Source of the DNA: Cupriavidus taiwanensis
GTDB taxonomy: Bacteria; Pseudomonadota; Gammaproteobacteria; Burkholderiales; Burkholderiaceae
Reading direction: 5' to 3'
Length of the DNA: 64,000 nt
NCBI RefSeq assembly: GCF_900250075.1
Contig: NZ_LT977071.1
Location: forward strand, 2,189,901-2,253,900
Position 1 is the stretch's first letter. Each line of letters begins with the position of its first letter. The notes under the pieces are model-generated. The model worked only from the letters and a program-made list of their open reading frames with translations. It was not told where the DNA came from and did not search any database. Shown in pieces: positions 12,325 through 63,786 of the stretch. Position numbers and translations under genes: made by a program.

Positions 12325-12978
12325 TCAGTCGCGATACGCCCACAGGTCCACCACGCGGCCGCCATCGTCCGCGATCAGGCGGAATGCGGCCGGCTGGTAG
12401 TCCGTATCGATGGCGAGCACACCGCTGGCACTGGCAGGCAGCGTGCCGCAGGCCGACGTCGACAGCTTCAGGCTCAGCGTATTCGGCATGGCCTGCGCCG
12501 CCAGTGTTCCCGACAGCTGGCATGCCGAAGCGCCGGGCGCGATCTTGCCTTCCGCGGTGACGGTGAAGATGGCGCTGGCGCCCGTAGGCAGCACCGTGGT
12601 GTAGGTGCCGGCCACGCTGGCAAGCTCTACGCTCGCGGCGGGCACCGCGGCCTGGCTCAGCAGCTTGACGCTGGCGGACGCGCCCGCGCCAGGCGCTGCG
12701 ACCCAGCTGCCGCCCTTGTCGCGGCGGTAGATGGCCGTGGCCTTGTCTTCGGCATCGGCCAGGACCAGGTAGCGGCTGCCGTCCGTGCCGGCGTAGTACT
12801 TGCCGACGGTCGGGTTGTCGGCATCGCCCACGCTGACGACGTAGGCGCCGGGATCCAGATCGGTGACGGACAAGGTCGCGGTCGCGGGCGGTGCGCCGTT
12901 GTCGGGCGCGTCGTTGCCGCCGCAGGCGGCCAGCCCCAGCACGGCTGCCAGGGGAAACAGGGAAATGAGGCGTTTCAT
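12325..12978 (-). CDS. Lipoprotein of unknown function
   Basis: 217 residues. The N-terminus MKRLISLFPLAAVLGLAAC is a type II signal peptide with lipobox LAAC and acylated Cys19, followed by GGND, suggesting outer-membrane sorting. The mature part is rich in small residues with repeated beta-strand patterns; no domain recognised. The start at 12978 lies 11 bases after the stop of the SurE-like gene, so the two form an operon. Confidence 0.8.
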   Translation of the reverse strand: MKRLISLFPLAAVLGLAACGGNDAPDNGAPPATATLSVTDLDPGAYVVSVGDADNPTVGKYYAGTDGSRYLVLADAEDKATAIYRRDKGGSWVAAPGAGASASVKLLSQAAVPAASVELASVAGTYTTVLPTGASAIFTVTAEGKIAPGASACQLSGTLAAQAMPNTLSLKLSTSACGTLPASASGVLAIDTDYQPAAFRLIADDGGRVVDLWAYRD

Positions 12979-12989
12979 CGGGACCTGCC

Positions 12990-23048: not shown

Positions 23049-26000
23049 TCAATGAAAATCCCGGCTCCCCACCATCAACCGCCCCAGCATCGGGCTCAGG
23101 TCCACCAGTTCCTTGGCCACCAGGTGGCGCACGTCGCCCTGGCGCTGCCAGGTGCCGACCACGCCCAGCAGCGTGGCGCCCAGCACCTCCTTGCGCTGGC
23201 GCTCGACCAGGTCGGGCCACAGGATCAGGTTGATGCTGCCGGTCTCGTCCTCGATGGTGGCGAAGATGGTGCCGCTGGCGGTGGACGGGCGCTGGCGCAC
23301 GGTGACGATCCCGCAGGCGCGCACGCGGCGGCCGTTGGCGCAGCGTTCGAGCTGGCTGGCAGTGACGAAGCGCATCGCCGCCAGCTTGTGCCGCAGCAGC
23401 GCCAGCGGGTGCGACTTGAGCGACAACCCCAGGCTGGCATAGTCCGCGGTCACATCTTCGCCGAGGCGCGGCGCGGGCAGCGTCAGCGCGGCTTCGGCGG
23501 GCGGCGCTTCATACAGCAGGTCGCGGTGTGCGGCATGCGCGGCCGCGGCGCGCGCCTGCCAGCGGGCCTGGCGGCGGTTGCCGGCGAGCGGCGCGAGCGC
23601 GTCGGCGGCGGCCAGCACGTCGATGTCGTGGCGGTCCAGGCCGGCGCGCAGCGCCAGGTCTTCGACACTGTCGAAGGCACGCTGCGCGCGCGCGGCCTCG
23701 ATGCGCAGCGCCGCGGCCTCGCGCATGCCCTTGACCCGGCCCAGGCCCAGGCGCACGCGCGGATGCGGCGGCCGCTCCTGCCGAATGATGGCCGCATCGG
23801 ACTCCGCCACCGGCTCCAGCGTGCTGTCCCAGCGGCTGATGGTGACATCCACCGGCAGTACCTCCACATCATGGCGGCGCGCGTCCTGCACCAGCTGCGA
23901 GGGCGAATAGAAGCCCATCGGCTGGCTGTTCAGCAGCGCGCACAGGAAGGCCGCCGGATGGTGGCACTTGAGCCACGAACTCACGTACACCAGCTTGGCG
24001 AAGCTGGCCGCATGGCTTTCGGGAAAGCCGTATTCGCCAAACCCCTCGATCTGCTTGCAGATCGCCAGCGCGAAGGATTCCGGATAGCCCTTGCCAGTCA
24101 GCGCCCGCACCAGCGCGTCTTGGTGCTTGCGCAGGTCGCCGCGCCGCCGCCATGCCGCCATCGAGCGGCGCAGCTGGTCCGCCTGCCCCGGCGAAAAACC
24201 CGCCGCGTCGATGGCCAGCTGCATCACCTGCTCCTGGAAGATCGGCACGCCCAGGGTGCGGCCCAGCACTTTCTCGATTACCTGGTTGAAGTAGACCGGC
24301 GGCTTCTGCGTGCGGCGAAAGGCCTCGCGCCGCTTCAGGTACGGATGGACCATGCCCCCCTGGATCGGGCCCGGCCGCACGATCGCCACCTCCACCACCA
24401 GGTCGTAGTACTCGCGCGGCTGCAGCCGCGGCAGCATCGATTGCTGCGCGCGCGACTCGATCTGGAACACGCCGATGGTGTCGGCCCTGCAGATCATGTC
24501 GTAGGTCGGCTTGTCCTCCTTCGGGATGTCCTCCATGCGCGCCGGCAGACCCGCGCGCGCCGGATCGCGGCTGGGGTTGGGGATCATCTCCAGCGCGCGC
24601 CGGATCGCCGACAGCATGCCCAGCGCCAGCACGTCGACCTTGAGCAGGCCCAGCGACTCCAGGTCGTCCTTGTCCCACTGGATCACGCTGCGGTCGGCCA
24701 TGGCCGCGTTCTCGATCGGCACCAGCCGCGACAGCTTGTGCCGCGCGATCACGAAGCCGCCCACGTGCTGCGACAGGTGGCGCGGAAAGCCACGCAGCTG
24801 CGCCGTCAGGCTGGCCCACTGCTGCACTGCCGGGGACTCGGGATCGAGCCCGTAGCGGGCGATCTTGTCGACAAAGCCCGGGCCGCCGTCCCACCATGCC
24901 TGGCCCTTGACTACCTGCTCGACCACGCTGGCGTCGATGCCGAGCGCGCGACCCACGTCGCGCAGGGCGCTGCGCGAACGGTAGGTGATCAGCGACGCCG
25001 CCAGCGCGGCGCGATGGCGGCCGTATTTGTCGTAGATGTACTGGATCACCTCTTCGCGCCGCTGGTGCTCGAAATCCACGTCGATATCGGGCGGCTCGTC
25101 GCGCTCGCGCGACAGGAAGCGGCCGAACAGCAGGTTGGCCTGCTCGGGGCTGACCTCGGTCACATACAGGCAGAAGCACACCAGCGAATTGGCGGCAGAG
25201 CCGCGCCCCTGGCACAGGATGCCGCGCGAGCGCGCAAAGCGCACGATGTCGTGCACCGTGAGGAAGAACGGCTCGTAGTGCTTTTCCTCGATCAGCTCCA
25301 GCTCTTCCTTCAGCTGCGCTTCCCACTCCGGCTTCAGGCCGTTGGGAAAGCGCTCGCGCTTGCCACGCTCGACTTCCTTGCGCAGATAGGAGATCGGGGT
25401 TTCGCCGGGCGGCACCAGTTCCTCGGGATACTCGTAACGCAGCGTGCCCAGCGAGAAATCGCAGGTCTCGGCAATCTTCAGCGTCTGCGCCAGCGCCTCG
25501 CGCGGGTACAGGCGCGACAGCACCTGGCGCATGCGCAGGTGCTGCTCGGCATTGGGCGCCAGCGCCATGCCGCATTCGGCCAGCGGCTGGCCCAGCCGGA
25601 TCGCGGTCAGCACGTCGGACAGCGGCTTGCGCGAGCGCACATGCATGGTGACCGCGCCGGCCGCGGCCAGCGGCACGCCGGTCTGCGCCGATACCGCTTC
25701 GAGGCGCGCGCGGTGCAAGGCATCGGCATGGCCCTGCAACTGTTCCAGCGCGATCCAGGCGCGCTCGCCGAACACTGCGCGGCACCACTCGGCCTGCTCC
25801 AGCAGCCGTTCCGGCTCGGCGCAATAGTCGGGCAGCAGCAGCGCCACGCAGCCGGGCATGCCGCGCAGGTGGGCGATGTCGCCGGCCGGCGCGGCGAGGT
25901 CTTCGGGATGCAGCCGGTAGCTGCCCTTCTGCGCGCGCCGGCGGCCCAGCGTGATCAGCTCGCTCAGGTTGCCGAAGCCCTCGCGATGCTGCGCGATCAG

Positions 26001-26513
26001 CACCAGCCGCAGCGGCGCCTGTTCCGGTCCATTGGCCGGGATCAGGCTGAAGCGGCTGCCGATCAGCAGCGAGAACGCATCGGCGGCGCGGGCCAGCGCC
26101 TGCAGCCGCTGGTGGCGGCTGGCGTGGAAGCCGGGATCGTCGTCGCCGCTGCCGAAGGCATCGGCGTCGTCGAGCAGCGGTTCATCGATGCCGTCATCGG
26201 CGCCGTCATCGACACCTTCATCCACGCCCTCGGCGACCCGTGCCGCGCTGCGCGCTACCGCGTCGTGCAGGCGCTTGCGCAGGGTCTCGATGGCATCGTG
26301 CGCGCGCGCGGTGCCGGCCACCGAGCATTCATCGGTCAGGGCCAGCCCGCGGTAGCCCAGGCCGAAGGCGCGCTCGATCAGTTCGCCCGGGTGCGAGGCG
26401 CCGCTCAGGAAGGTGAAGTTGGAGATGCAGTGCAGCTCCACGTAATCCGGCAGCGCCGGCAGCAAACCCGGCAAGGACGCAGGCAACGATGGGGGCAAGG
26501 GCGGCGCGCTCAT
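23049..26513 (-). CDS. dnaE2: Error-prone DNA polymerase DnaE2 (ImuC)
   Basis: 1154 residues from the ATG that overlaps the imuB stop by ATGA. The N-terminal PHP domain (YVELHCISNFTFLSGASHPGEL, TDECSVAGTARAHDA) leads into the polymerase core with PDIDVDFEHQRREEV, which carries the catalytic aspartates. The C-terminal OB-fold reads GIVTVRQRPSTASGTIFATI, then LILWPDL. Established knowledge: DnaE2 is the catalytic subunit of the ImuA-ImuB-DnaE2 mutasome that copies past DNA damage under SOS control. Its last 126 bases are duplicated at 16030. Confidence 0.97.
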   Translation of the reverse strand: MSAPPLPPSLPASLPGLLPALPDYVELHCISNFTFLSGASHPGELIERAFGLGYRGLALTDECSVAGTARAHDAIETLRKRLHDAVARSAARVAEGVDEGVDDGADDGIDEPLLDDADAFGSGDDDPGFHASRHQRLQALARAADAFSLLIGSRFSLIPANGPEQAPLRLVLIAQHREGFGNLSELITLGRRRAQKGSYRLHPEDLAAPAGDIAHLRGMPGCVALLLPDYCAEPERLLEQAEWCRAVFGERAWIALEQLQGHADALHRARLEAVSAQTGVPLAAAGAVTMHVRSRKPLSDVLTAIRLGQPLAECGMALAPNAEQHLRMRQVLSRLYPREALAQTLKIAETCDFSLGTLRYEYPEELVPPGETPISYLRKEVERGKRERFPNGLKPEWEAQLKEELELIEEKHYEPFFLTVHDIVRFARSRGILCQGRGSAANSLVCFCLYVTEVSPEQANLLFGRFLSRERDEPPDIDVDFEHQRREEVIQYIYDKYGRHRAALAASLITYRSRSALRDVGRALGIDASVVEQVVKGQAWWDGGPGFVDKIARYGLDPESPAVQQWASLTAQLRGFPRHLSQHVGGFVIARHKLSRLVPIENAAMADRSVIQWDKDDLESLGLLKVDVLALGMLSAIRRALEMIPNPSRDPARAGLPARMEDIPKEDKPTYDMICRADTIGVFQIESRAQQSMLPRLQPREYYDLVVEVAIVRPGPIQGGMVHPYLKRREAFRRTQKPPVYFNQVIEKVLGRTLGVPIFQEQVMQLAIDAAGFSPGQADQLRRSMAAWRRRGDLRKHQDALVRALTGKGYPESFALAICKQIEGFGEYGFPESHAASFAKLVYVSSWLKCHHPAAFLCALLNSQPMGFYSPSQLVQDARRHDVEVLPVDVTISRWDSTLEPVAESDAAIIRQERPPHPRVRLGLGRVKGMREAAALRIEAARAQRAFDSVEDLALRAGLDRHDIDVLAAADALAPLAGNRRQARWQARAAAAHAAHRDLLYEAPPAEAALTLPAPRLGEDVTADYASLGLSLKSHPLALLRHKLAAMRFVTASQLERCANGRRVRACGIVTVRQRPSTASGTIFATIEDETGSINLILWPDLVERQRKEVLGATLLGVVGTWQRQGDVRHLVAKELVDLSPMLGRLMVGSRDFH

Positions 26514-28078
26514 GCGAACAACCCATGCAGGAACCAGCGATACTCGCCGCCATCGTCGTGCGCGGCATGGCCCGGACGCTCGCGGAAGATCCAGCAGCGC
26601 AGGCCGTCGGCGCGCTCGGCGATAAAGTAGTCGCGCGTGGCCAGGGCCCCGTCCCACCAGCCGGCCTCGATGCGCTCGGGCCGGCTCAGCAGCGCCAGCG
26701 GGCCGCCGTGGCAGGGGCGGTGGCGCTGCACCGGCAGCGGCAGCGGTTGCGGCAGCAGCCACAGCGGGCGCTCCGGCTGCGGCTCGGGCAGGCTGGCGGG
26801 CTTGCCAGCGGGCTCGTCGACCGGGCACCAGCGGTTGGCGCGCTCGGGCCGGTGGTCGGCCAGCGGGCGCGGCTGCAGCACGTTGTCGCGGCCCAGCCGC
26901 GCCATCAGCGTATCGAGCAGGCGGCCCAGGTCTTCCGGCGTGCCGCCGGGCTCGGGGAACAGCGCATCGCTTTGCGGCACGCACGCGGCCATGGCTTCCA
27001 CGCGCAGCGCCAGGCCGGTCACGGGGGCATGGAAGCTGAGCTGGTCGAGCTTTTCGCGCAGCAGCCGCGACAGGTGCGCGGGATCGCGGCTGGGCTGGGC
27101 CAGGCCCAGTGGCACCGGGGTGCCTTCGGTGGCCGCGCCGCGCCGGTAGCGCTCATGCTCCAGCACCAGCACGCAGCGCGTGACGCCGGCCTGCTGCACC
27201 GCCAGCCAGCCCGCCAGCGCCAGCAGCAGCCGCTGCGCGCCGGCCAGCACGGCTTCGGCGGATTCGATCCGGCCCGGCAGGTCCATGCGCTGCGCAAACG
27301 CGGGCGGCGCCACGAACCAGACAAAGCGCGCCGGCGCCTCGCCATAGGCCTGGTCCAGCCGCGCCAGCAGCGCCGGACCCAGCCGGCGCGTCAGGCCCGC
27401 GCGCGGCAGGCGCCGCACCTCGCCCAGCGTGCGGCAGCCGATGCCATCCAGCCAGGCCGGATCGGCCAGCGTGTGCAGCGCCTCCACCGGCAGGCGGTCG
27501 AGCAGCCGGTGCAGGCGCGCCATGCCCACCGCCCGGCGGCCGGGCCGCACCACGCCACGCCGCGTGCGCCGCAGCGGCTGGCGTGCCAGCCATGCGGCGC
27601 CGTGCGCGGTCGGCCCGCACCCCACCTGGGCCACGGTGCCCAGCTGGCGCACGCAGGCCCGCACCGCGCGGCACAGCGCGCGATGGCCGCCGAACAGGCG
27701 CAGGCTGGCGCCGGCATCGAGCATCAGCGTGGCCGACTCCGGCTCCTCGTCGACGGTCACGCCCGGCGTGAAACGCAGCAGCGCCAGCGCCACCGCTTCC
27801 ATCAGCGCGGCTTCGGCGGCCGGGTCGCGCTCCAGCTGCACGATATCGGCCGACAGGGCCTGCACGCCACCGCGGCGCATGCCATAGCGCACGCCCAGCT
27901 GCATCGCCGGACCATTGGCCAGCACCACCTGCTCGCGCGCCATCACCGCCACCGGCAGCGCATGGTGCAGGGTGGCGGCAGCGGCAGGCGGGCTCGCGGC
28001 GGGCGCCAGCTCAGGCCAGTTGGGCTGCAGCGCGTCCAGGGGCAGGCGCGGCAGGTGCACCGCGATCCAGTACGGCAT
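26510..28078 (-). CDS. imuB: ImuB, Y-family polymerase-like mutasome subunit
   Basis: 522 residues starting MPYWIAVHLPRLPLDALQ. It keeps the Y-family scaffold (MQLGVRYGMRRGGVQALSADIV; helix-hairpin-helix region WLDGIGCRTLGEVRRLPRAGL) but lacks the first acidic DxD catalytic residue, as known for ImuB, which is an adaptor to the beta clamp and DnaE2. The C-terminus reads RDYFIAERADGLRCWIFRER. The start overlaps the imuA 3' end by 68 bases, and the stop overlaps the dnaE2 start by ATGA, giving tight translational coupling. Confidence 0.95.
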   Translation of the reverse strand: MPYWIAVHLPRLPLDALQPNWPELAPAASPPAAAATLHHALPVAVMAREQVVLANGPAMQLGVRYGMRRGGVQALSADIVQLERDPAAEAALMEAVALALLRFTPGVTVDEEPESATLMLDAGASLRLFGGHRALCRAVRACVRQLGTVAQVGCGPTAHGAAWLARQPLRRTRRGVVRPGRRAVGMARLHRLLDRLPVEALHTLADPAWLDGIGCRTLGEVRRLPRAGLTRRLGPALLARLDQAYGEAPARFVWFVAPPAFAQRMDLPGRIESAEAVLAGAQRLLLALAGWLAVQQAGVTRCVLVLEHERYRRGAATEGTPVPLGLAQPSRDPAHLSRLLREKLDQLSFHAPVTGLALRVEAMAACVPQSDALFPEPGGTPEDLGRLLDTLMARLGRDNVLQPRPLADHRPERANRWCPVDEPAGKPASLPEPQPERPLWLLPQPLPLPVQRHRPCHGGPLALLSRPERIEAGWWDGALATRDYFIAERADGLRCWIFRERPGHAAHDDGGEYRWFLHGLFA

Positions 28079-31836: not shown

Positions 31837-34116
31837 TCAGCGCGCCATGACCTTGTCCGGCGTCATCGGCGTGCTGCGCAAGCGCCTGCCGGTGGCGTGA
31901 TAGATCGCATTGCTGATCGCGGCGGCAACGCCGACCAGCCCGATTTCGCCCACGCCCTTGGCGCCCAGGCTGCTGACCACGCGGTCGTCCTCATCGACGA
32001 AGATCACGTCCAGGTCCTGGATATCGGCGTGCGAGGCGATGTGGTACTCGGCGATATTGCGGTTCATGAAGCGGCCGAGCGCATGGTCGCTGTGCGTTTC
32101 CTCGTGCAGCGCCTGGCCGATGCCCCACACCATGCCGCCCAGGATCTGGCTGCGCGCGGTCTTCGGGTTGATGATGCGCCCGGCCGCCACCGCGCTGACC
32201 ACGCGCGTCACGCGCACGGTGCCCAGCGCCTCGTCGACGCGCACCTCGCAGAACACGGCCGAGTGCGCGGCGCGCGTGTACTGCTTCTGCTTGAACAAAT
32301 TGGGCAATTGCAGGAATGATGCCTCGATCTGTTCGCGCCGGGCCGCTGCCAGGATGCCGGTCAGCGGCAACGACACGCCGGCGCCGCCGCGCAGGCTGAC
32401 CTGGCCGTGCTCGAATACCAGGTCCTCGTAGCGCGCGCGCTCGAAGCCGGAGCCCTGCATGCGCCGCGCCATGTGCCACAGCATCCGGCGCAGCTTGTCG
32501 CACACGCCGTCGACCGCCGTGCCCACCGTGGCCACATGCGACGAGCCGCCTTCCACGGGCGCCACCGGCAGCTCCGAATCGCCCAGCACGAACGTCACCT
32601 GCTCCAGCGGCAGGCCCAGCGACGCGGCGGCGATCTGGCTCATCACCGTCAGCGTGCCGGTGCCGATGTCGGTGGCGGCGCTGGCTACCTCGAGCCGGCC
32701 GTCGGCGCGGAACACCGCGCGGGCGCGGCTGAACATCTGCAGCGCGTCCCAGGTGCCGCTGGCCATGCCCCAGCCGACCAGCTCGTGGCCAGCGCGCATC
32801 GAACGCGGCTGCGGTGGCCGTCCGGCCCAGCCGAACCGTTGCGCGCCCTGCGCGTAGCATTCCCGCAGTGCCTTGCTCGAGAACGGCAGGCCGCTGGCGC
32901 CGTCGCGCTCGGCGTAGTTCTTGAGCCGCAGCGCCAGCGGGTCCATCCCCACCGCATAGGACAGCTCGTCCATCGCCACCTCGATCGCATGCACGCCGTG
33001 CGCGGCGCCCGGCGCACGCATGTCGGCCGGGGTGGGCTGGTCCAGGTCGACCAGTCGATAGTCCTGCCGGCTGTTCTCGGAGGCATAGAGCTGCGTGGAC
33101 CAGTTGACCACCACCTCGACGTAGTGCTCCATGCGCGAGGTCTCGGCCACGGCTTCATGGATCAGGCTCACCAGCCCCCCATCGGCGTCGGCACCCAGCC
33201 GGACGCGCTGCCAGGTCTCGGGCCGGTGGCAGAAGGTGAACATCTGCGGCCGTGTCAGCACCACGCGCACCGAGCGCTCCAGCGCCAGCGCCGCCATCAC
33301 CGCCAGGATCAGCTGGTACTGCGGCCGCAGCCCCGAGCCGAACGCCCCGCCCACGTATTCATTGCGCACCGTGACCTTGCGCTTGGGCAGCCCGAACACC
33401 CGCGACACCATCCAGCGCGAATTCTGCGAGCCCTGGGTCTTGTCGTAGATGGTCAGGTGGCCGTCGCCGCCGCGGATCACCGTGGTGGCGTGCATCTCCA
33501 TCGGATTGTGGTGCTCGACGCCGCTGTAGAACTCCGCGTCGACCTGGAAAGGCGCGCGCGCGAAGGCGGCGTCGGCATCGCCGCGCGCCTTGGGCGGGCC
33601 GGAATAGCCCGCCTTGAAGCGCATCGGCTTGCCGGCGCGGCCCAGGTGCTCCAGCAGGCTGGTCTCGTGCGGCCACGCCTGGTAGCGCACGCGCACCAGC
33701 GTCGCGGCATGGCGTGCCGCCTCGAAGGTCTCGGCCACCACCAGCGCGACCGGCTGGCCGCTGTACCAGATGCGCGCGTCGTGCAGCGGCTTGAACGGCG
33801 AACCGGCGGGCGCGACCATGTCCTTGTAGAACAGGTCGAGCGAACGCACGCGCGGGCGGCGCTCATGGGTCAGCACCTCGAGCACGCCCGGCACCGCCAG
33901 CGCCGCGCTGCAATCGATCGACACGATGCGTCCGCGCGCAATGGTGCTGTTCACCACCACCCCGTGCGCAAGGTCGAAGGCCGGATGCTCGGCGGCATAG
34001 CGCGCCGTGCCGGTGACCTTGGCCACGCCATCGAGGCGCGGGACCGGCGTGCCGATGCCGACCGGGCCCGTGCCGGGGCGTGCGCGCGGCGTGCATTGCG
34101 GGATCGGATCGTTCAT
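31837..34116 (-). CDS. Molybdopterin-binding subunit of a xanthine-dehydrogenase-family hydroxylase
   Basis: 759 residues from the ATG overlapping the FAD-subunit stop by ATGA. Molybdenum-cofactor segments include GGAFGSGLRPQYQL, DIGTGTLTVMSQIAA and SSHVATVGTA. The C-terminal GAKGVGEIGLVG carries the catalytic Glu. No Tat signal is present, so a cytoplasmic enzyme is expected. The family hydroxylates aldehydes or N-heterocycles. Layout and length match the YagTSR/PaoABC-type aldehyde oxidoreductases, but the substrate is not determined by sequence. Confidence 0.93.
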   Translation of the reverse strand: MNDPIPQCTPRARPGTGPVGIGTPVPRLDGVAKVTGTARYAAEHPAFDLAHGVVVNSTIARGRIVSIDCSAALAVPGVLEVLTHERRPRVRSLDLFYKDMVAPAGSPFKPLHDARIWYSGQPVALVVAETFEAARHAATLVRVRYQAWPHETSLLEHLGRAGKPMRFKAGYSGPPKARGDADAAFARAPFQVDAEFYSGVEHHNPMEMHATTVIRGGDGHLTIYDKTQGSQNSRWMVSRVFGLPKRKVTVRNEYVGGAFGSGLRPQYQLILAVMAALALERSVRVVLTRPQMFTFCHRPETWQRVRLGADADGGLVSLIHEAVAETSRMEHYVEVVVNWSTQLYASENSRQDYRLVDLDQPTPADMRAPGAAHGVHAIEVAMDELSYAVGMDPLALRLKNYAERDGASGLPFSSKALRECYAQGAQRFGWAGRPPQPRSMRAGHELVGWGMASGTWDALQMFSRARAVFRADGRLEVASAATDIGTGTLTVMSQIAAASLGLPLEQVTFVLGDSELPVAPVEGGSSHVATVGTAVDGVCDKLRRMLWHMARRMQGSGFERARYEDLVFEHGQVSLRGGAGVSLPLTGILAAARREQIEASFLQLPNLFKQKQYTRAAHSAVFCEVRVDEALGTVRVTRVVSAVAAGRIINPKTARSQILGGMVWGIGQALHEETHSDHALGRFMNRNIAEYHIASHADIQDLDVIFVDEDDRVVSSLGAKGVGEIGLVGVAAAISNAIYHATGRRLRSTPMTPDKVMAR

Positions 34117-35213
34117 GGCTGCTCCTCCTCGCTGAAGGCGTCTTCGCCGGTATTGCTCAGCACGCCGGCGACCGCCATTTCCAGCGCGCGCACGATCGCG
34201 CGCTCGGCCAGCGCGATCTTGAAGCTGTTGCCGGGCAGGCTCTCGGGCACGGCCGGGCCGCCCCAGGCGCGCGCATCGCGCAGCAGGAAGCGGGCCGCGG
34301 CGGCAAAGTGTTCGACCGTGGCGGGCCGGCCCTGCAGGTGCGCCTCGGCCTCGGGATCGCGCCACGGCTTGTGGGCCACGCCGCCCAGTGCCAGCCGCGC
34401 GGCACGCACGGTGCCATCGTCGGCAAGGTCCAGCGCGGCAGCCACCGACACCAGTGCGAACGCAAACGACGCGCGCTCGCGGATCTTCAGGTAACAGGCA
34501 CGGTGCGCAAACTCGGCGGCGGGAGGCAGCACGATGTGGGTGATCAGTTCGTCGGGGCGCAGCGTGGTGTCGATGTGCGGGCGGTCCTCCGGCAGCCGAT
34601 GGAATTCATGGAACGGAATCTCGCGGCGGCCGCTGGCCGAGGCCACGTGCACCACCGCGCCCAGCGCCGCCAGTGCCACGCACATGTCGGACGGATGGGT
34701 GGCGACGCAATGCTCGCTCGCGCCCAGGATGGCATGCTGGCGCGCCAGCCCGGTCGCCGCCGGGCAGCCGCTGCCGGGATCGCGCTTGTTGCAGGGCACG
34801 CCCGGATCGTAGAAGTAATAGCAGCGCGTGCGCTGCAGCAGGTTGCCGCCATTGGTCGCCATATTGCGGATCTGCGCCGAGGCCCCGGCCAGGATCGCCG
34901 CGCGCAGCAGCGGATACTGCGCGCGCACCAGCGGGTGCTGCGCGGTATCGGCGTTGCTGGCCAGCGCACCGAGCCTGAGCCCGCCCTCCGCCGTGGCCTC
35001 GATCATCCGCAGCGGCAGTTGCCTGACATCGACCAGCGCGGCCGGATGCATCATGCCGCCCTTCACCAGGTCGATCAGGTTGGTGCCGGAAGCCAGGAAG
35101 TGCGGCGCGTGGTCGTCGCCAAGGCTTTGCACGCCGGCGTCCCGCTGCGCGGCGGCGATCGACTGCAGCGCCGCTTCCACCGTGGCCGCGCGCTCATAGC
35201 GGAACGGGTTCAT
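34113..35213 (-). CDS. FAD-binding subunit of the molybdenum hydroxylase
   Basis: 366 residues. The FAD-binding pattern of the CoxM/PaoB group is visible: FLASGTNLIDLVKGGMMHP near residue 50, and ATNGGNLLQRTRCYYFYDPGVPCNKR with Cys residues that in PaoB-like proteins bind an extra [4Fe-4S] cluster. HCVATHPSDMCVALAALGAVV follows. It transfers electrons from the Fe-S subunit to an acceptor. Both ends overlap neighbours by ATGA, so three subunits are made from one message. Confidence 0.93.
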   Translation of the reverse strand: MNPFRYERAATVEAALQSIAAAQRDAGVQSLGDDHAPHFLASGTNLIDLVKGGMMHPAALVDVRQLPLRMIEATAEGGLRLGALASNADTAQHPLVRAQYPLLRAAILAGASAQIRNMATNGGNLLQRTRCYYFYDPGVPCNKRDPGSGCPAATGLARQHAILGASEHCVATHPSDMCVALAALGAVVHVASASGRREIPFHEFHRLPEDRPHIDTTLRPDELITHIVLPPAAEFAHRACYLKIRERASFAFALVSVAAALDLADDGTVRAARLALGGVAHKPWRDPEAEAHLQGRPATVEHFAAAARFLLRDARAWGGPAVPESLPGNSFKIALAERAIVRALEMAVAGVLSNTGEDAFSEEEQP

Positions 35214-35752
35214 GATGGCTCCTGGTCGTGGTCAGTCAGCCCGGCGACCTCGGCGATCGCCTCGACGATCTGCGCATACGCGCCGCAGCGGCACAGGTTA
35301 CCGCTCATGCGCTCGCGGATCTCCTGTCGGCTTGCCGGCGGATGCTCGTTCAGCAGTCCCACGGCGGAGCACAGCTGTCCCGGCGTGCAATAGCCGCACT
35401 GGAACGCGTCGTGGTCGATAAAGGCCTGCTGCAGCGGATGCAGCGCGCCGGTGTTGCGATCGGCCAGCCCCTCCACGGTGGTAATGTCGGCGCCGTCATA
35501 GGACACGGCCAGGCACAGGCACGACTTGATGCGCCTGCCGCCAACCAGCACCGTGCAGGCGCCGCATTGGCCGTGGTCGCAGCCCTTCTTGGTGCCGGTG
35601 AGCTGCAGTTGCTCGCGCAGCAGGTCCAGCAGGATCACCCACGGGGCCAGCAGCAGCTCGTGGGTGATGCCGTTGATGTGCAGCGTGGTGGGGATCTGTT
35701 GCAGTGCGCCGGCCTGGGATGCCGGGGGAGCAAGCGGGTCTTCCAGTGCCAT
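35210..35752 (-). CDS. 2Fe-2S subunit of the molybdenum hydroxylase
   Basis: 180 residues. The plant-ferredoxin-type cluster motif KKGCDHGQCGACTVLVGG, with a further Cys in RRIKSCLCLAV, is followed by the second cluster motif CGYCTPGQ and LCRCGAYAQIVEAI. There is no Tat signal (PaoA of E. coli has one), supporting a cytoplasmic location. First gene of the operon; its promoter must lie in the 176-bp gap before 35929. Confidence 0.94.
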   Translation of the reverse strand: MALEDPLAPPASQAGALQQIPTTLHINGITHELLLAPWVILLDLLREQLQLTGTKKGCDHGQCGACTVLVGGRRIKSCLCLAVSYDGADITTVEGLADRNTGALHPLQQAFIDHDAFQCGYCTPGQLCSAVGLLNEHPPASRQEIRERMSGNLCRCGAYAQIVEAIAEVAGLTDHDQEPS

Positions 35753-57787: not shown

Positions 57788-59161
57788 TTAGTCGGCAATG
57801 GCTTCCAGCGCCCTGCCGCGGGTTTCGATGCCGAACCGGAGCACGATTGCCGCCGCGGCAAGGAAACACAGCGCGCCCAGGCAGAACACGCCAGCTTGCC
57901 CCGCGACGGGCAGCACCAGGCCCACCAGCGTCGGCCCCAGCAGCGAGCCGATGCGCCCCACCGTCGAAGCCATGCCACAGCCAGAAGCGCGAGCGCGCGT
58001 GGGATAGAGCTCCGGGGTATAGGTATAGAGCACCGCCCACATGCCGAACATGAAGAACTGCATCATGCCGCCGGAGAGGAATAGCGCCAGCGGCTCCGAC
58101 GCCGAGCCAGCGACCCGGCCATAGATAAAGACCATGCACGCCCCGCCGACCAGCGTCGCCACGCAGGCGGGCTTGCGTCCCCAGCGCTCCACCACCCACG
58201 CCGCCCAAAGGAAGCCCGGAATCCCGCCGATCGAGATATACACCGTGTACAACACGGACTTGGTCACATCCAGTCCCGATTGCTGCAGCAGCGCGCCGAT
58301 CCACGTATTGAGGCCGTAGAACCCCAGCAGGGCAAAGAACCACAGCCCCCAGACAGTCAGGGTCCGGCTGCGGTACGCGCGCGACCACAGCACGCGCAAT
58401 CCCGTTGCCTCCGGCTCCGCCGCCGCAGCCGCCGGAGTGACTTCCGGCAATGCATCAAGCTTCATCCGCCGCATCACCGACTGCTCGATGCGTTCGACGA
58501 TCGCTGCGGCTTCGGCATGGCGCCCCTGCGATTCCAGCCAGCGCGGAGACTCGGGGACGAAGCGCCGAACCACGATCAGGAAGAGCGCCGGCACCGCGCC
58601 AAGCAGGAACATCGTGCGCCAGGTATAGGCGCTCAGCACGTAGTACGACATCAGGCCAGCGCAGATGAACGCGATCGGCCAGTTGCCGTCCATCAATGCC
58701 AGGTACTTGCCGCGCTGCCGCGCCGGGATGAACTCCGACATCAGCGTCTGTGCCAGTGGCAGTTCCATGCCCATGCCGATGCCGAGCAAGAGCCGGTATG
58801 CGCCCAGTTCCATGGGGTTGCTCGCGGTCGAACAGAGATAGCTGCCCACGCCCCAGATGATCATGCTGACCTGGAACACGGGCTTGCGTCCGAACCTGTC
58901 GGCAAGCATTCCCGAACTGAGCGCGCCGACGGCCATGCCGACAAAGCTGGCGCTTCCGAGCATGCCCGCTTGCGCAGCGGTCAAGCCAAACTCCGTGCGT
59001 ATCGAACCCAGCAAATACGTCATCATGGCCAGGTCGAGATTGTCGAAGAAGAAGGCCAGCGCAATGATTGCAAACAGAAGGCGGTGATACCCGCATACGG
59101 GCAGCCGTTCCAGGCGGTCGCCGGTGCGCACGCGCATCAGCTCGAGAGGGGTGTGCTTCAT
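57788..59161 (-). CDS. MFS transporter (sugar/aromatic-acid symporter type)
   Basis: 457 residues, twelve hydrophobic segments. The first helix carries FFFDNLDLAMMTYLLGSI with the paired Asp of aromatic-acid:H+ symporters. GMLADRFGRKPVF lies between TM2-3 and RRFVPESPRWLESQGRHAEA between TM6-7, and WGRKPACVATLVGG repeats the loop motif. GGAG supports the start. It lies downstream of the RidA-PurA-like-PPOX operon on the same strand but beyond a strong terminator, so it probably has its own promoter. Confidence 0.92.
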   Translation of the reverse strand: MKHTPLELMRVRTGDRLERLPVCGYHRLLFAIIALAFFFDNLDLAMMTYLLGSIRTEFGLTAAQAGMLGSASFVGMAVGALSSGMLADRFGRKPVFQVSMIIWGVGSYLCSTASNPMELGAYRLLLGIGMGMELPLAQTLMSEFIPARQRGKYLALMDGNWPIAFICAGLMSYYVLSAYTWRTMFLLGAVPALFLIVVRRFVPESPRWLESQGRHAEAAAIVERIEQSVMRRMKLDALPEVTPAAAAAEPEATGLRVLWSRAYRSRTLTVWGLWFFALLGFYGLNTWIGALLQQSGLDVTKSVLYTVYISIGGIPGFLWAAWVVERWGRKPACVATLVGGACMVFIYGRVAGSASEPLALFLSGGMMQFFMFGMWAVLYTYTPELYPTRARASGCGMASTVGRIGSLLGPTLVGLVLPVAGQAGVFCLGALCFLAAAAIVLRFGIETRGRALEAIAD

Positions 59162-59339
59162 CTTGTCTCCAGTCGTTCTAGTGCCAGTGCTCTATGGCAC
59201 TGGCGCAAGCGATAACGCGTGGTTGCGCTATCGCTCGCTACTGTCGCTTGCGGCCAAGTGCGCGACGCGCGCCGGAACGCCAAGGTCTGTCTCGCAGGCG
59301 CCAATGCATCGGAGGAGCTTGTGCCGAGCCACCGAGCAC

Positions 59340-59366
59340 AAAAAAAGAGGTGCCGAAGCACCTCTT
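59340..59366 (-). terminator. Intrinsic terminator of the PurA-like operon
   Basis: On the minus strand AAGAGGTGC, TTCG loop and GCACCTCTT form a perfect 9-bp stem with a stable UUCG tetraloop, followed by a run of seven T. It lies 22 bases after the PPOX stop and separates that operon from the MFS gene. Confidence 0.95.
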
Positions 59367-59387
59367 CATGTCATGCGATCGCGAGCC

Positions 59388-60014
59388 CTACTTCCCCCCA
59401 AACCGACGGGGATCGAACGCTTCCGGCGGCAGACCGGACAGCGTCGCACCGGACTGGAACGGATAGCGCAGGTACGGCGCGCGCGGCTGCCCTGGCGGCG
59501 AATACTGTCCGTCAGCGAGGATGCGCTTCTTCGCGCTCAACTCGCGGATCTCGCAGCGATAGGCCACGATCTGGCTGGCCGCGCCGTCCTCGATCGGCGA
59601 GTAGTCCTTCTCGGGCCGGAACTTGTCCAGCGCCTGGTACTGATGCGCGCGCACCTCTTCGGTACTGTCACGCAGCCGGACTTCACAGCGCGCGATGACG
59701 CTGAAATACTCGAGGCTGGTGTTCTGGCCCTTCGGCGCTTTCAGCAAGGCCACGGGCCGATCGATTTCGATCGTGACCAGCGGGTTCGCCCGGATCGCGG
59801 CGGCAAGCTTGCCGAACCTGGAACTGTGGATCAGGAACGCGTCGCCGGTGAAGGTAAAACTCTGCGCCGTGACATAGGGGTACGGTTCGTCATGCACCGC
59901 CACGCGGCAGATCAGCTCATCCTTCAGAAAGGCTTCGATGGCCGGCCAGTCGGTCCAGGCCAGGTCGGTCCTGCGCATCTCGCCGCGCAGGTAGGCGGGG
60001 GTTGAACTTGTCAT
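59388..60014 (-). CDS. Pyridoxamine 5'-phosphate oxidase-like flavin-binding protein
   Basis: 208 residues with the split-barrel FMN-binding fold: CRVAVHDEPYPYVTAQSFTF, then FLIHSSRFGKLAAAIRANPLVTIEID, then SLEYFSVIARCEVRL. The group acts as FMN or heme-linked oxidoreductases on diverse small molecules; PLP synthesis is unlikely because its typical binding residues are absent. The start overlaps the stop of the PurA-like gene by ATGA, so the two are made together. Confidence 0.88.
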   Translation of the reverse strand: MTSSTPAYLRGEMRRTDLAWTDWPAIEAFLKDELICRVAVHDEPYPYVTAQSFTFTGDAFLIHSSRFGKLAAAIRANPLVTIEIDRPVALLKAPKGQNTSLEYFSVIARCEVRLRDSTEEVRAHQYQALDKFRPEKDYSPIEDGAASQIVAYRCEIRELSAKKRILADGQYSPPGQPRAPYLRYPFQSGATLSGLPPEAFDPRRFGGK

Positions 60015-61390
60015 GGTGTGGTCTGCTGGTTGGGTTCAAGAAGCCGCATTTGCGCGCGTTCCGGTCCTAGTCCGATGCCGCGCAGGGGCCGGCCGATGGC
60101 CTGCGCCAGCCATGCGAGCAGCGCTTCAAGCTGCGGGGGCAGCGGCGAGGCGGCATCCGTCGGTATGGCGCCCTGCGCGAACGCGGGAAATTGCAGCACG
60201 CGCTGGCTTGCGCTACCGGCCTCGCCAGCGACGACTACTGGAATGCAACCCTCGGGCGTATGGGAAAAGGCGGCCAGGCTGTCGCATTTGTTGAGATACA
60301 CCTCGTCGACGCCGGCCTGCTGTATCGCGAGCTGCAGTTGCGCAACGTCAAGCAGGCCCACGCGCCGTGGCCGGCCGGTGCCGGTGCCGTACTCGTTCGC
60401 CAGCATCCGGATCGCCACGCCGGTCGAGAATGCATCCGCTTCGGCGAGCAACTTCAGCGGATCGTGGCTTGCCGCTTCGTCGGCGCGGCCGCGGCCCGCA
60501 TGGGCCGCCGCGGCGCAATAGGCTTCGGAACGCTGCCCGCCCAGTTCGGTCGGCAGCGGGCCGTTGCCGACCCGGGAGACGATGGCCTTGGCCACGCCGA
60601 TGGTCTTGCGGTGATAGCGGCACGGCAGGTCTCCGCCTACGTAGGCATAGGCGGGGAGCGTGTGGCTGGACGTGACCCACGGCTGGACGCCATGCACCAC
60701 ATCCAGCATCACCGACTGTGCGCCCTCGAACAGTACCCTTGCCCCGGCCTCGACCCGCCGCAACAGCGCGACAGCATCATTCGTCACGAACGGCCGAACC
60801 ACCCTCCACGCGTGGCGCATGCCGTCCACCATCGCCGCTATGGCCTCGTCATCGTCGTCGGCCTGCGATGCCAGCCGGGTCATCAGTTCGAACACGCGGC
60901 CCTCGTCACACCACAAGTCGCGCAACTGGAACGCAACACGCTCGGCGCCCCGCATCCGGGCCGCCAGATCGGCGTAGCACGGACCGATGCCGTTGCCGGT
61001 GGTGCCGATCCGTGCGCCATCGCGGCGGTCCGCCAGCACATGCCGCGGCTGAACCAGCGGACACCTGTCGCTGATTGTCAGCCGTCCCTCCAGGCTGATA
61101 CCTTGAGCCGCCAGCATCGCAATCTCGGATGCCAGCTGCGGCAACCCGACCACGCAGCCCGAGCCGATGTAGAGCGCAACGCCAGGGTGCAGCACGCCAG
61201 AAGGCACTTGCCGCAGCCGCAGCGCACCGGCGGGCGTGGCGATGGTATGTCCGGCGTTGGCCCCGCCATTGAAACGCGCAATCACGTCATACCCGGCAGC
61301 GAGGTGATCAACGATTCGCGCCTTGCCCTCGTCGCCAAATTGCAGGCCCACCAGGACGTCGGCATAGCCGGCCTTTGTCGCGGCGCCCAT
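60011..61390 (-). CDS. Adenylosuccinate synthetase paralogue (PurA-like ligase)
   Basis: 459 residues versus about 430 for PurA. GTPase/catalytic elements are kept: GDEGKARIVD (Asp20, Lys23), NAGHTI (His48), GTP-base NKCD near residue 366, and Arg in the aspartate loop (TGTGRPRRVG). Substitutions fall at the IMP site: IGTTGNGIGP has Asn133 where E. coli PurA has Arg131, and FEGAQS replaces FEGAQG. It probably couples GTP-driven ligation of aspartate (or an amine) to a non-IMP acceptor. RidA-like and PPOX-like partners in a 3-bp-gap/ATGA operon, not purine genes, support this. Confidence 0.88.
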   Translation of the reverse strand: MGAATKAGYADVLVGLQFGDEGKARIVDHLAAGYDVIARFNGGANAGHTIATPAGALRLRQVPSGVLHPGVALYIGSGCVVGLPQLASEIAMLAAQGISLEGRLTISDRCPLVQPRHVLADRRDGARIGTTGNGIGPCYADLAARMRGAERVAFQLRDLWCDEGRVFELMTRLASQADDDDEAIAAMVDGMRHAWRVVRPFVTNDAVALLRRVEAGARVLFEGAQSVMLDVVHGVQPWVTSSHTLPAYAYVGGDLPCRYHRKTIGVAKAIVSRVGNGPLPTELGGQRSEAYCAAAAHAGRGRADEAASHDPLKLLAEADAFSTGVAIRMLANEYGTGTGRPRRVGLLDVAQLQLAIQQAGVDEVYLNKCDSLAAFSHTPEGCIPVVVAGEAGSASQRVLQFPAFAQGAIPTDAASPLPPQLEALLAWLAQAIGRPLRGIGLGPERAQMRLLEPNQQTTP

Positions 61391-61393
61391 CGC

Positions 61394-61858
61394 CTAGGCG
61401 TCCAGTGCGAAGGTTGCCTCGATCTCAACCGGGGCACCGAACGGAAGGCTCGCCACGCCGAGCGCAAGGCGGGCGTGGCGCCCGCGCTCGGCAAAAATCC
61501 GGTTGAGAAGATCCGACGCGGCGTTGATCACCAGCGGCGCATCGTCGAAACCAGGATCCGCTGCAACGTAGCCGCCTACCCGCACGATGCCCCGGATCCG
61601 TTCGAAATCGCCATCGACCGCGGCGGCCACCCAGCCCAGCAGGTTGGCCAGGCAAAGCCGGGCCGCCGCCTGCGCTGCCTCGACGCTGACCGCGCCGGGA
61701 ACCTTGCCGACGAATACGGGCTTGCTGTCCTGCAGCGGCAGCTGTCCCGATATCGTCAGCAAGCCCCGGTGCAGCGTGTACGGGACATAAAGCGCCTTGG
61801 GCATTGCGGCGGCAGGCAGGACGATGCCCGCTGCCTGGATACGATCCATCACTGACAT
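61394..61858 (-). CDS. RidA-family (YjgF/UK114) protein
   Basis: 154 residues from the ATG at 61858 with GAGGAG upstream. It starts MSVMDRIQAAGIVLPAAAMP and has LLTISGQLPLQDSK and the C-terminal strand LGVASLPFGAPVEIEATFAL typical of the longer RidA subgroup. RidA hydrolyses reactive enamine/imine intermediates such as 2-aminoacrylate. It is the first gene of the operon with the PurA-like ligase (3-bp gap), suggesting that pathway yields an imine or enamine. Confidence 0.9.
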   Translation of the reverse strand: MSVMDRIQAAGIVLPAAAMPKALYVPYTLHRGLLTISGQLPLQDSKPVFVGKVPGAVSVEAAQAAARLCLANLLGWVAAAVDGDFERIRGIVRVGGYVAADPGFDDAPLVINAASDLLNRIFAERGRHARLALGVASLPFGAPVEIEATFALDA

Positions 61859-62005
61859 ACTCACTCCTCGACTTGGACAAATGCCGACGGAGCAAGCACG
61901 GTGCTGGCCATCCGGCGGCACCTAGACTGTGCCGCAGGGCCCAGGCCTCGATTCGCGCCTTGACGCCAGTTGATGTCGCGCAGATGCCAACCGGCAGCGT
62001 GACGC

Positions 62006-62791
62006 CTAGTCGCCGCTGCGGTCGCGGAAATACTCGGTGGGGGTCATGCCAAGCGCTCGTCTGAACATGGCGCTGAATGCGCTTGGACTCTCGTATCCAA
62101 GCTGAAGCGCGATGTCCGTGACATGGCAACCCTCGGCAAGCAGGCGAACCGCGGCCATCAGCCGCGCCTGCTGCTTCCAGCGGCTGTATGTCATCCCCGT
62201 TTCTTCCGGAAACAGACGGATGATGGTCCGTTCGCTGGCGCCAACCGAGCGGCTCCACGTCTGGACCGAGGTCTCGTCCGAGGGATCGTCGAGGATCTTC
62301 GCGCAGATCTTGCCCAGGCGTGGGTCCCTTGGCATTGGCAGATGCAGCGGGACCACCGAAAGCGGACGCAACTCCTGCAGCAGAAGCTGCACCACCAAGC
62401 CGTCGCGGCTGCCTTCGTCATAGGCCAGCGGCATGCGCACGGCGGCCGAGATCAGCTCGCGCAGCAGCGGCGGCACCGCGACCACGCAACAGCCGTGCAA
62501 CTCGCCCGGTACGGCATCTTCGCGAACGTAGACGGTTCGCATCTCCACATCGCCGCACGCCTGCATGGCGTGCTTGACGTTGCAAGGCACCCAGACGGCG
62601 CGCTGGGGCGGCACCACCCACGAACCGAAGTCCGTTGTGACCAGGATGGCCCCCACATAGGCATAGATCAGCTGCGCGCGCGGATGCGAATGCGGGGCGA
62701 TATAGAAGCCATCCTTCAGCTTGCGCGCCATGCCGCCGACCGGCTGCGCTATCGCCTGGTAGTCATCGCGGTTTTCGCTTTTTCCGAACAT
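62006..62791 (-). CDS. AraC-family regulator with cupin sensor
   Basis: 261 residues. The N-terminal cupin (about 20-110) reads FYIAPHSHPRAQLIYAYVGAI, then WVVPPQRAVWVPCNVKHAMQAC with metal-type His residues. The C-terminal HTH (about 160-258) reads SRWKQQARLMAAVRLLAEGCHVTDIALQLGYESPSAFSAMFRRALGMTPTEYFR. It lies 147 bases upstream of the RidA-PurA-like-PPOX operon on the same strand and diverges from the arylformamidase-like gene, the expected place for their regulator. Confidence 0.92.
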   Translation of the reverse strand: MFGKSENRDDYQAIAQPVGGMARKLKDGFYIAPHSHPRAQLIYAYVGAILVTTDFGSWVVPPQRAVWVPCNVKHAMQACGDVEMRTVYVREDAVPGELHGCCVVAVPPLLRELISAAVRMPLAYDEGSRDGLVVQLLLQELRPLSVVPLHLPMPRDPRLGKICAKILDDPSDETSVQTWSRSVGASERTIIRLFPEETGMTYSRWKQQARLMAAVRLLAEGCHVTDIALQLGYESPSAFSAMFRRALGMTPTEYFRDRSGD

Positions 62792-62928
62792 GGCGTCTTT
62801 GCGATAGTGGTTGTCATCCCGCGGCGCGCGCTGCTAAACGCGGATACGTATCTTTGGCCGGACGCGACAAGCGTCGCAACGACCCAATGGAATCGACGCA
62901 TCGATCCCAACGTCTGGAGCCAAATTTA

Positions 62929-63786
62929 ATGTCAGTGTATCGAAACTTCAACCAGGAAGAACTGGACCAGCAGTACAACGTCAGGGCTGGAATCCCCGGC
63001 TTCCAGGACATCTTCAAGCGATGGGCCGACACCAGCGCCACGTTCCGTCGGAACCATCTGGTCAAGCCGGATCTTGCGTATGGCGCACACGCCTTGCAGG
63101 CGCTCGACTTCTTCCCGGCGGCCACCCCAAAGCGCCCTCTGCTGGTCTTCATTCATGGCGGTTATTGGCAATCGCTGGACAAGTCCGACTTCAGCTCCAT
63201 TGCCGCGCCCTACCTGCAGCGCGACATCAACGTCGCGGTGGTGAACTACCGCCTGGCTCCGGATGTGGGCATGGCCGAGATTGTCCGCGACAATCAGGAA
63301 GCAGTGGCATGGCTCTACCGGCATGCCAACGAACTGGGATTCGATCCGGATCGCATCTTCTTGTCCGGCCACTCAGCCGGCGGCCATCTCACCGCCACAC
63401 TGGCGGCAACGGACTGGCTTGCCTTCGGCGTACCGGCGGATATCCTCAAGGGAGGTTGCGCGATCAGCGGCTTGTATGACCTGGAGCCGATCCGGCTGTG
63501 CTACCTCAACCAGGTGGTTGGGCTGACTGAAGCGGACGTTGCCCGCTACAGTCCGATCCATCATGTCCCGAAAATCAAACTGCCCATGATCCTGACCGTC
63601 GGCGGCGATGAATCGCCGGAGTACCACCGGCTGCAGCGCGAATACCAGGCGCTGCTGGGCGAATGCGGGTTCGACGTGCAGGTGGTGGTGCAGGAGCGCG
63701 GCCACCATTTCGATGCGGTCGACCTGCTGGGCAACGCCGAGGGCGCCCTGGCCGCCGCGGTGTTGCGCATGATCGGTCGGGCCTGA
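62929..63786 (+). CDS. Alpha/beta hydrolase resembling kynurenine formamidase (arylformamidase)
   Basis: 285 residues from the ATG with GGAG about 10 bases upstream. The oxyanion motif is HGGYWQSLDKSDF, the nucleophile elbow SGHSAGGHLTA, and the catalytic His is in GHHFDAVD. HGGYW is characteristic of AFMID-type formamidases, which hydrolyse N-formylkynurenine and similar aryl amides. It diverges from the AraC regulator gene next to the PurA-like operon and may act in the same pathway. Confidence 0.88.
   Translation: MSVYRNFNQEELDQQYNVRAGIPGFQDIFKRWADTSATFRRNHLVKPDLAYGAHALQALDFFPAATPKRPLLVFIHGGYWQSLDKSDFSSIAAPYLQRDINVAVVNYRLAPDVGMAEIVRDNQEAVAWLYRHANELGFDPDRIFLSGHSAGGHLTATLAATDWLAFGVPADILKGGCAISGLYDLEPIRLCYLNQVVGLTEADVARYSPIHHVPKIKLPMILTVGGDESPEYHRLQREYQALLGECGFDVQVVVQERGHHFDAVDLLGNAEGALAAAVLRMIGRA

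Follow-up and report, generated by a model that had tools for sequence, protein, structure and literature searches.

A second, divergent adenylosuccinate-synthetase-family protein in a conserved gene cassette of Cupriavidus taiwanensis: a possible inhibitor-insensitive isozyme

A 64,000-nucleotide stretch of Cupriavidus taiwanensis DNA (assembly GCF_900250075.1, NZ_LT977071.1, positions 2,189,901 to 2,253,900), herein referred to as the window, contains a gene for a second protein of the adenylosuccinate synthetase (AdSS) family, named here PurA'. The window lies on contig C2 of a 6.77-Mb genome in 14 contigs (genome G000); the nearest named loci (L033-L037) are from Cupriavidus. The gene is located in a cassette together with genes for an alpha/beta hydrolase (ABH), an AraC-family regulator, a RidA-family protein, a flavin mononucleotide (FMN) split-barrel protein (PPOX), and an MFS transporter. 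As a tentative best explanation, held with less than even confidence and drawn from sequence comparison, PurA' may be an inhibitor-insensitive AdSS isozyme acting in an inducible detoxification or resistance cassette. Databases label the PurA' proteins simply adenylosuccinate synthetase, an annotation corrected by this analysis.

PurA' belongs to the AdSS family by its score against the Pfam model PF00709 (309-310 bits, cut-off 27). The gene and its most distinctive part are located as follows:

60011..61390, minus strand: PurA', second AdSS-family protein, 459 amino acids (PF00709)
~60390..60540 (~residues 284-331), minus strand: extra segment of PurA' before the Asp-binding loop, from the alignment to Escherichia coli PurA; coordinates approximate

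Genome G000 also has a housekeeping purA gene, the product of which scores 593 bits against PF00709 vs. 309 for the window gene. Thus, PurA' was rejected as the sole housekeeping PurA of this genome, a case that the earlier note on this DNA had raised. A housekeeping purA was found in all 12 carriers checked of the 47 described below (G000, G016, G019, G025, G031, G101, G204, G259, G366, G370, G388, and G396). In a maximum-likelihood tree of 72 rows (41 PurA', 26 housekeeping PurA, par2, and PurZ), the 41 PurA' rows form one side of a branch (support 97/97, length 1.35, 96% of bootstrap trees), apart from the housekeeping, par2, and PurZ rows; the placement of PurZ itself, on a very long branch, is unsure. 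The proposal of a PurA paralogue is upheld by phylogeny, PurA' being a clade separate from housekeeping PurA. Within it, one subclade (18 rows, 100/93) unites the type I rows (see below) and two rows of unseen neighbourhood, and another (13 rows, 99/99) unites the type II and actinobacterial rows. The protein referred to as par2 is a third kind of PurA, found in some genomes of the same genus (L154-L157; G005, G002, G027, and G026). It keeps Arg131 and Asp231, groups near the proteobacterial housekeeping PurA, and in some genomes is located beside genes for LysR, aldehyde dehydrogenase, iron-containing alcohol dehydrogenase, and MFS proteins.

The active site was compared with that of E. coli PurA (L158, b4177). 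All nine contacts of inosine monophosphate (IMP), namely E. coli-numbered Asp13, Asn38, Gly127, Thr129, Arg143, Gln224 (which we take to be such a contact), Thr239, Val273, and Arg303, are identical in the window PurA', and the same nine are kept in 126-132 of the 132 listed family proteins (gaps aside). The excerpt of PMC11571797 lists Helicobacter pylori counterparts of eight of these contacts, all but Gln224, and gives H. pylori Arg135 as the Arg reaching IMP from the partner subunit; the numbering was transferred from H. pylori to E. coli by residue type and spacing. Additionally, the P-loop, Asp13, Lys16, His41, Lys331, and Asp333 are kept in 129-131 of the 132 proteins (gaps aside), and the equivalents of the Asp-loop residues Arg303 and Arg305 in 131. 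A change at Thr300 says little, since this residue differs among housekeeping enzymes as well. Among the residues reported in the earlier note, Asp20, Lys23, His48, NKCD (367-370), and the Asp-loop Arg are indeed retained in the window PurA', along with Thr338, Arg340, and Arg342, and the GAQG loop is changed, reading GAQS. The reported replacement of an IMP-contact Arg by Asn133 did not stand, being a misalignment: Asn133 corresponds to E. coli Arg131, and the IMP Arg (E. coli Arg143) is kept as Arg145. An altered IMP site was thus rejected, the contacts being retained in the window protein and near-invariant in the family.

PurA' genes were found in two neighbourhoods: type I, the hydrolase / AraC-RidA-PurA'-PPOX-MFS cassette, and type II, a different gene cluster. 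The other type I genes in the window and the signals predicted around them are as follows:

62887..63786, plus strand: alpha/beta hydrolase of the HGGYWQ/GHSAGG type, kynurenine-formamidase/HSL-like, divergent; alternative start at 62929
62006..62791, minus strand: AraC-family regulator upstream of RidA (HTH_18, 83 bits, cut-off 34; AraC_binding above cut-off)
61394..61858, minus strand: RidA-family protein (PF14588, 58 bits, cut-off 35; PF01042 above cut-off with the longer frame)
59388..60014, minus strand: FMN split-barrel protein, Pyridox_ox_2 / PPOX-like (PF12900, 90 bits, cut-off 27)
57788..59161, minus strand: MFS transporter, aromatic-acid/H+ symporter-like, beyond the hairpin (Sugar_tr, 167 bits, cut-off 22; MFS_1 above cut-off)
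59344..59367, minus strand: intrinsic-terminator-like hairpin GAAGAGGTGC-TTCG-GCACCTCTTT with T tail, a perfect stem 3' of PPOX
61953..61990, minus strand: tandem operator TTGGCATCTGCGCGACA-N4-CTGGCGT..., 21-bp period, upstream of RidA
59267..59304, minus strand: tandem operator TTGGCGCCTGCGAGACA-N4-TTGGCGT..., upstream of MFS
62790..62827, plus strand: degenerate tandem operator towards the hydrolase, overlapping the AraC start codon (18/28 consensus positions, shuffle p ~0.01)

In a search of 60 relatives, a PurA' orthologue scoring above 600 bits was found in 5 of the 36 genomes of the same genus, including that of the window. A survey of 398 genomes of the same family yielded 53 matches in 47 genomes (E up to 1e-65). 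Fifteen of these carriers belong to the genus of the window and the others to four further genera, mostly the Pandoraea-like g34; one carrier, G101, is Trinickia-like. By tblastn, 25 of the 53 PurA' genes have the type I neighbourhood, 28 have the type II neighbourhood, and none is located elsewhere, so that a chance neighbourhood was rejected; both types are present in six genomes. The gene order of type I is identical in all 25 loci compared, of which L149 has an insertion of ~4 kb between PPOX and MFS and L234 lies on a contig that ends after PurA', before PPOX and MFS. The synteny search thus disposes of the earlier concern that the order might not be conserved, and the operon proposed earlier is borne out as syntenic and co-regulated by these 25 loci together with the shared operators described below. 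A complete type I cassette, followed by genes for malic enzyme and a second RidA, was also found on the 666-kb plasmid p3 of Caballeronia zhejiangensis (L182, NZ_CP084287), typed as mobilizable; plasmid matches comprised 73 records, with 30 among the matches listed and one (L182) examined. Outside the family, matches were found in 1 of 299 genomes of the phylum of the window (the window itself), in 1 of 99 of the order of G713, in 1 of 245 of the phylum of an archaeal genome, and in 3 of 239 of another phylum. No match was found among 386 genomes of the phylum around G813, an empty answer that is not informative about absence. The named actinobacterial members belong to Kitasatospora, Micromonospora, Actinoplanes, Catellatospora, and Acrocarpospora. 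At the level of search results, literature searches yielded no description of the cassette, the PurA' clade, or the type II cluster.

The layout in the window agrees with that described before: RidA, PurA', and PPOX are packed on the minus strand with a 3-bp gap and then a 4-bp ATGA overlap, the AraC gene lies upstream, the arylformamidase-like hydrolase diverges, and the MFS gene lies past the terminator, as confirmed by gene coordinates and Pfam scores. The perfect TTCG-loop hairpin said to close the operon was found at 59367-59344. Terminator-like matches in the region number 5 vs. a shuffle mean of 4.3, a non-significant count, so that the sole argument for this hairpin is its perfect stem; by eye, similar hairpins are present in several Cupriavidus loci and in none of the more distant ones. 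The closest structures to the hydrolase are Lipase 1 (9n8r, 1e-46), 2pbl (1e-27), and kynurenine formamidase (4e11, 7e-19); it scores 81 bits with BD-FAE (cut-off 27), is likewise above cut-off with Abhydrolase_3, and keeps HGGYWQ, Ser163, Asp241, and His273/274 unchanged across 23 aligned rows. The RidA protein is nearest to 3d01 (4e-38) and PA0814 (9bk9, 8e-26), and its Arg130 and Glu147 are unchanged in 23 rows; judging by the motif, Arg130 presumably corresponds to the catalytic Arg105 of RidA. PPOX, with 99 of 208 residues unchanged in 23 rows, is nearest to 2hti (2e-7) and matches the 5-nitroimidazole resistance protein 2fg9 at no better than E 0.04. The MFS protein scores 287 bits with TIGR00895, below the cut-off of 419, although this is still the best of 57 models. 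In every one of the 25 type I loci, AraC occupies the first or second position of the cassette. The ratios of nonsynonymous to synonymous substitution rates (dN/dS), limited to Cupriavidus as dS is saturated beyond the genus, are 0.13-0.22 for PurA', 0.10-0.26 for RidA, 0.08-0.19 for ABH, 0.05-0.13 for PPOX, 0.01-0.11 for MFS, and 0.05-0.11 for AraC; recent degeneration of the PurA' gene was rejected on these values.

The sites upstream of RidA and MFS share the consensus TTGGC(A/G)(C/T)CTGCG(A/C)GACA-N4-(C/T)TGGCGT with a repeat spacing of 21 bp. In genome G000, the strict 27-base pattern with up to 3 mismatches matches only two places, both in the cassette and with 0 mismatches; the reversed control gave 1 match. 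The hydrolase-side copy has 4 mismatches to this pattern by hand count and is hence outside the genome-search matches, but its position is constant in all 17 loci compared, with scores of 16-21. Among these loci, the RidA operator reaches the shuffle limit in all 17, the hydrolase operator has p 0.02 or better in 16 (0.05 in L153), and the MFS operator has p 0.03 or better in 15, with one (L140) at a different place, and misses p 0.05 in 2; all these p values are optimistic, the consensus having been built from the same sequences and compared with single-base shuffles. The half-site alone gave 4 matches in the window vs. 3.06 expected, no better than chance. A search of 15 genomes yielded further scattered 2-mismatch sites, roughly at the estimated expectation (under one per genome or more), and in G366 this pattern search yielded no site. 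Since an operator precedes MFS as well as RidA, the MFS gene would belong to the regulon of the RidA operon despite the terminator, probably as a transcript of its own. As part of the tentative explanation as a whole, the six genes may form one AraC-type regulon with the predicted operators. A close match to the operator was also observed upstream of an unrelated, by eye Fsr-like, MFS gene in four Pandoraea-like genomes (L222-L225); one of these, G191, has only a type II PurA' match.

Some cassettes have lost PurA' but retain the five remaining genes intact. In L226, located via its operator, the cassette is complete except for PurA'; by eye, a ~13-codon frame following RidA looks like its beginning. 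Furthermore, PurA' is broken or partial in 3 of the 25 type I loci: only 43% is matched in G366, and in-frame stops are present in G388 and G410, the latter being an 86%-complete assembly in which RidA and MFS are also split and a sequence error is possible. In L226, G366, and G388, tblastn covers at least 94% of each of the five remaining genes and shows no stops in them (RidA in G388 and G366, 99%, no stops). A TGA was noted within the PurA' match of G025 in the family survey, but it was not shown in the tblastn comparison of loci. Such losses should be fatal to a linear pathway with PurA' as a middle step, and tolerable for a spare target that accompanies a breakdown route. The uptake-hydrolysis-ligation-oxidation route suggested earlier thus does not fit as far as its obligatory PurA' step is concerned.

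Indirect evidence on the activity of the clade comes from genome G1508 (phylum of a Levyibacteriota metagenome-assembled genome, MAG), which was read whole (six contigs, 1.30 Mb in 68 pieces). A single place in it is matched by E. coli PurA, a member of the PurA' clade (E 1e-54) being encoded there. Relatives of PurB (51%), GuaA (40%), PurF (43%), PurN (33%), and PurD (31%) were found in the same genome, and frames beside PurB resemble PurE and PurC (by eye). Since AdSS is indispensable to an organism equipped with PurB and able to make IMP, the member on this branch is most likely an AdSS, and by extension the window branch is probably still an AdSS. The repurposed-ligase proposal of the earlier note is weakened by this sole PurA beside purine genes and by the retained IMP contacts. 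A further clade member that seems to be the sole PurA of its genome is that of L039: it adjoins purF-, purN-, and purD-like genes, and its MAG, which may be incomplete, shows no other PurA. In the archaeal L038 (Candidatus Norongarragalina), the genome of which also has a housekeeping PurA, the clade member directly precedes genes for a thiamine-pyrophosphate enzyme, a 479-amino-acid protein, and an APH-like kinase.

Type II PurA' genes were found in a single genus, as follows:

L147, L150, L152, L235-L241, L243-L247, L249, and L251-L262: type II loci, Pandoraea-like, 28 genomes

L147 contains genes for a methyltransferase, SbnA, SbnB, PurA', an AurF-family protein, an ornithine/acetylornithine-carbamoyltransferase-like protein, a threonine-synthase-like pyridoxal-phosphate (PLP) protein, a ThiO-like flavin adenine dinucleotide (FAD) protein, and a flavin-reductase-domain protein; a LuxR-type regulator is encoded nearby. 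The diaminopropionate synthase pair scores above cut-off (SbnA, TIGR03945, 379.5 bits against 350; SbnB, TIGR03944, 370 against 327). The methyltransferase, SbnA, SbnB, PurA', AurF, carbamoyltransferase, PLP, and FAD genes were matched by tblastn in all 28 type II loci, of which L245, L255, L258, and L260 show single in-frame stops or splits. Thirty AurF relatives (E up to 1e-30) are among the matches listed, nearly all of the named ones from Pandoraea. The contigs carrying two of them measure 9,879 and 21,060 bases, the lengths also of the contigs of two PurA' proteins, and the pairing of AurF with PurA' thus probably exists outside the genus. According to the excerpts of the respective papers, L-alanosine inhibits AdSS (PMC9025092) and derives from N-hydroxylated L-diaminopropionate, the N-hydroxylase being the acyl-CoA-dehydrogenase-like AlaD/AlnG (PMC11705231). 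Neither AlaD/AlnG nor the cupin-AraC protein AlnA was found among the L147 genes scanned, some surrounding genes lying outside the scan. Since type II would make diaminopropionate and has an N-oxygenase, as in the alanosine pathway, a resistant AdSS is expected there. By this analogy, the cluster suggests the logic of an alanosine-like AdSS-inhibitor cluster with a resistant target.

With its sensor, transporter, formamidase/esterase-like hydrolase, FMN protein, and imine hydrolase, the type I cassette looks like an inducible detoxification system. Under the proposed explanation, the six-gene AraC-type regulon would answer a toxic compound aimed at AdSS. PurA', a divergent clade with an altered amino-acid side, would still join IMP and Asp at the expense of guanosine triphosphate (GTP) and would sustain the synthesis of adenosine monophosphate while the housekeeping enzyme is shut down by an inhibitor resembling aspartate. 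The MFS protein would move the compound or its products. In the breakdown, the hydrolase would act on an amide or ester, the FMN protein would perform flavin chemistry on nitrogen, and RidA would hydrolyze the resulting imine. The same PurA' clade would provide the presumed self-resistance in the diaminopropionate/N-oxygenase cluster. Hadacidin is N-formyl-N-hydroxyglycine, and it is a bold analogy that compounds of this type would fit each chemical step: the hydrolase would remove the formyl group, the FMN protein would convert the N-hydroxy amine to an imine, RidA would hydrolyze this imine to glyoxylate and ammonia, the MFS protein would move the compound, and PurA' would be the insensitive spare target. 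A wider reading of the sequences, by which the cassette would confer inducible resistance to, and breakdown of, natural aspartate-site AdSS inhibitors such as hadacidin and the Pandoraea-like cluster would make an undescribed diaminopropionate-derived AdSS inhibitor, with protection by the same enzyme clade, is improbable taken as a whole.

Several observations weigh against an isozyme in a resistance cassette. PurA' scores below the cut-offs of the PurA equivalogs (NF002223, 279 bits against 402; TIGR00184, 249 against 396); the G1508 member is a distant branch, ~47% identical to a type I protein; AurF differs from the alanosine N-hydroxylase AlaD/AlnG; and import of aromatic acids is the usual role of the MFS family. 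Moreover, Arg131, which presumably belongs to the aspartate side of AdSS, is Asn in 128 of 132 family proteins, and the distance from TEL to NE(F/Y)G is 48 residues vs. 12 in E. coli, i.e., 36 longer; both changes could equally mean another amine donor. The loop directly after this extra segment is the Asp-binding loop (PMC11276676). Together with GAQS in place of GAQG in 132 of 132 proteins and the loss of Asp231 (mostly Val or Thr), these changes favor a repurposed ligase, in which PurA' would activate IMP or a related nucleotide with GTP and join it to an amine other than Asp, e.g., diaminopropionate, the product being tailored by RidA, PPOX, and the hydrolase. It points the same way that PurA' adjoins SbnA/SbnB in every type II locus (28 of 28) and is always an additional copy in those genomes of the Burkholderiaceae family that were checked. 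However, the Asp-loop arginines are kept, a distant clade member is the only PurA of G1508, PurA' is dispensable to the cassette, and the cassette has no lyase gene; we consider a ligase somewhat unlikely.

A nutritional catabolic operon appears still less probable. Here, AraC would sense an amide- or amine-bearing aromatic compound, the MFS protein would import it, and the hydrolase, PPOX, and RidA would degrade it, with PurA' as an accessory tuning nucleotide or aspartate/fumarate flow. An aromatic substrate would be indicated only by the MFS family, aromatic acid symporters being the nearest (TIGR00895, below cut-off), and by the kinship of the hydrolase to kynurenine formamidase. Such an operon would agree with the malic enzyme after the L182 cassette, a malic-enzyme-like frame in L151, and the amine-oxidase-like gene and further RidA after the PurA'-less cassette L226 (by eye), but ring-cleavage or further catabolic genes are absent from the 25 cassettes, the strict operator is found nowhere else in the genome, and no reason is given for an intact PurA' in 22 of 25 loci. 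The region in question in L226 (positions 4900-13500) contains the PurA'-less cassette and then, by eye, an FAD-amine-oxidase-like frame and another RidA-like frame. Finally, PurA' might be a stress isozyme escaping control, e.g., by guanine nucleotides or ppGpp, its link to RidA, PPOX, and MFS being purely regulatory. The guanine-site changes from TKLD to NKxD (NKCD in the window PurA') and from Ser414 to Gly would suit this. This reading leaves the hydrolase, the MFS protein, and the SbnA/SbnB/AurF neighbourhood unexplained and is very improbable.

If the isozyme explanation is true, an uncharacterised AdSS clade serves as a movable spare target in a conserved regulon against poisons of purine synthesis, and resistant-target mining gains a way into a biosynthetic cluster, apparently undescribed, that was found in 28 genomes of a single genus. 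Were the ligase alternative true, PurA' would be a new GTP-dependent amine ligase. Elsewhere in the window, a DnaE2/ImuB-like pair (23049-28078) and a xanthine-dehydrogenase-like trio (31837-35752) were observed by eye.

Compared with known systems, PurA' shares with PurA (PF00709; E. coli b4177) the fold family, P-loop, catalytic Asp and His, IMP contacts, NKxD, and Asp-loop arginines, and differs from it by its separate clade, scores under the NCBIfam cut-offs, Asn for Arg131, GAQS, and 36 additional residues. Like the phage PurZ, it is a PurA paralogue with possibly altered specificity; unlike PurZ, it scores only 98 bits with NF038379, below both the cut-off of 300 and its own scores with the PurA models. 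The cassette RidA resembles the Rid family members PA0814 and Atu1372 (PF14588) in having Arg130 in an HAR...LP context and Glu147, but reaches 20 bits vs. the TIGR00004 cut-off of 106. Target-duplication self-resistance, the idea outlined in the excerpt of PMC12616698, offers a parallel as a second copy of an inhibitor target beside biosynthetic genes; searches of the literature on it, at the level of search results, yielded no AdSS example. The closest parallel to the type II logic is the L-alanosine pathway of Streptomyces (aln/ala), with its diaminopropionate origin, N-oxygenation, and a product that hits AdSS (excerpts of PMC11705231 and PMC9025092), whereas type II has AurF-like, carbamoyltransferase-, threonine-synthase-, and ThiO-like genes.

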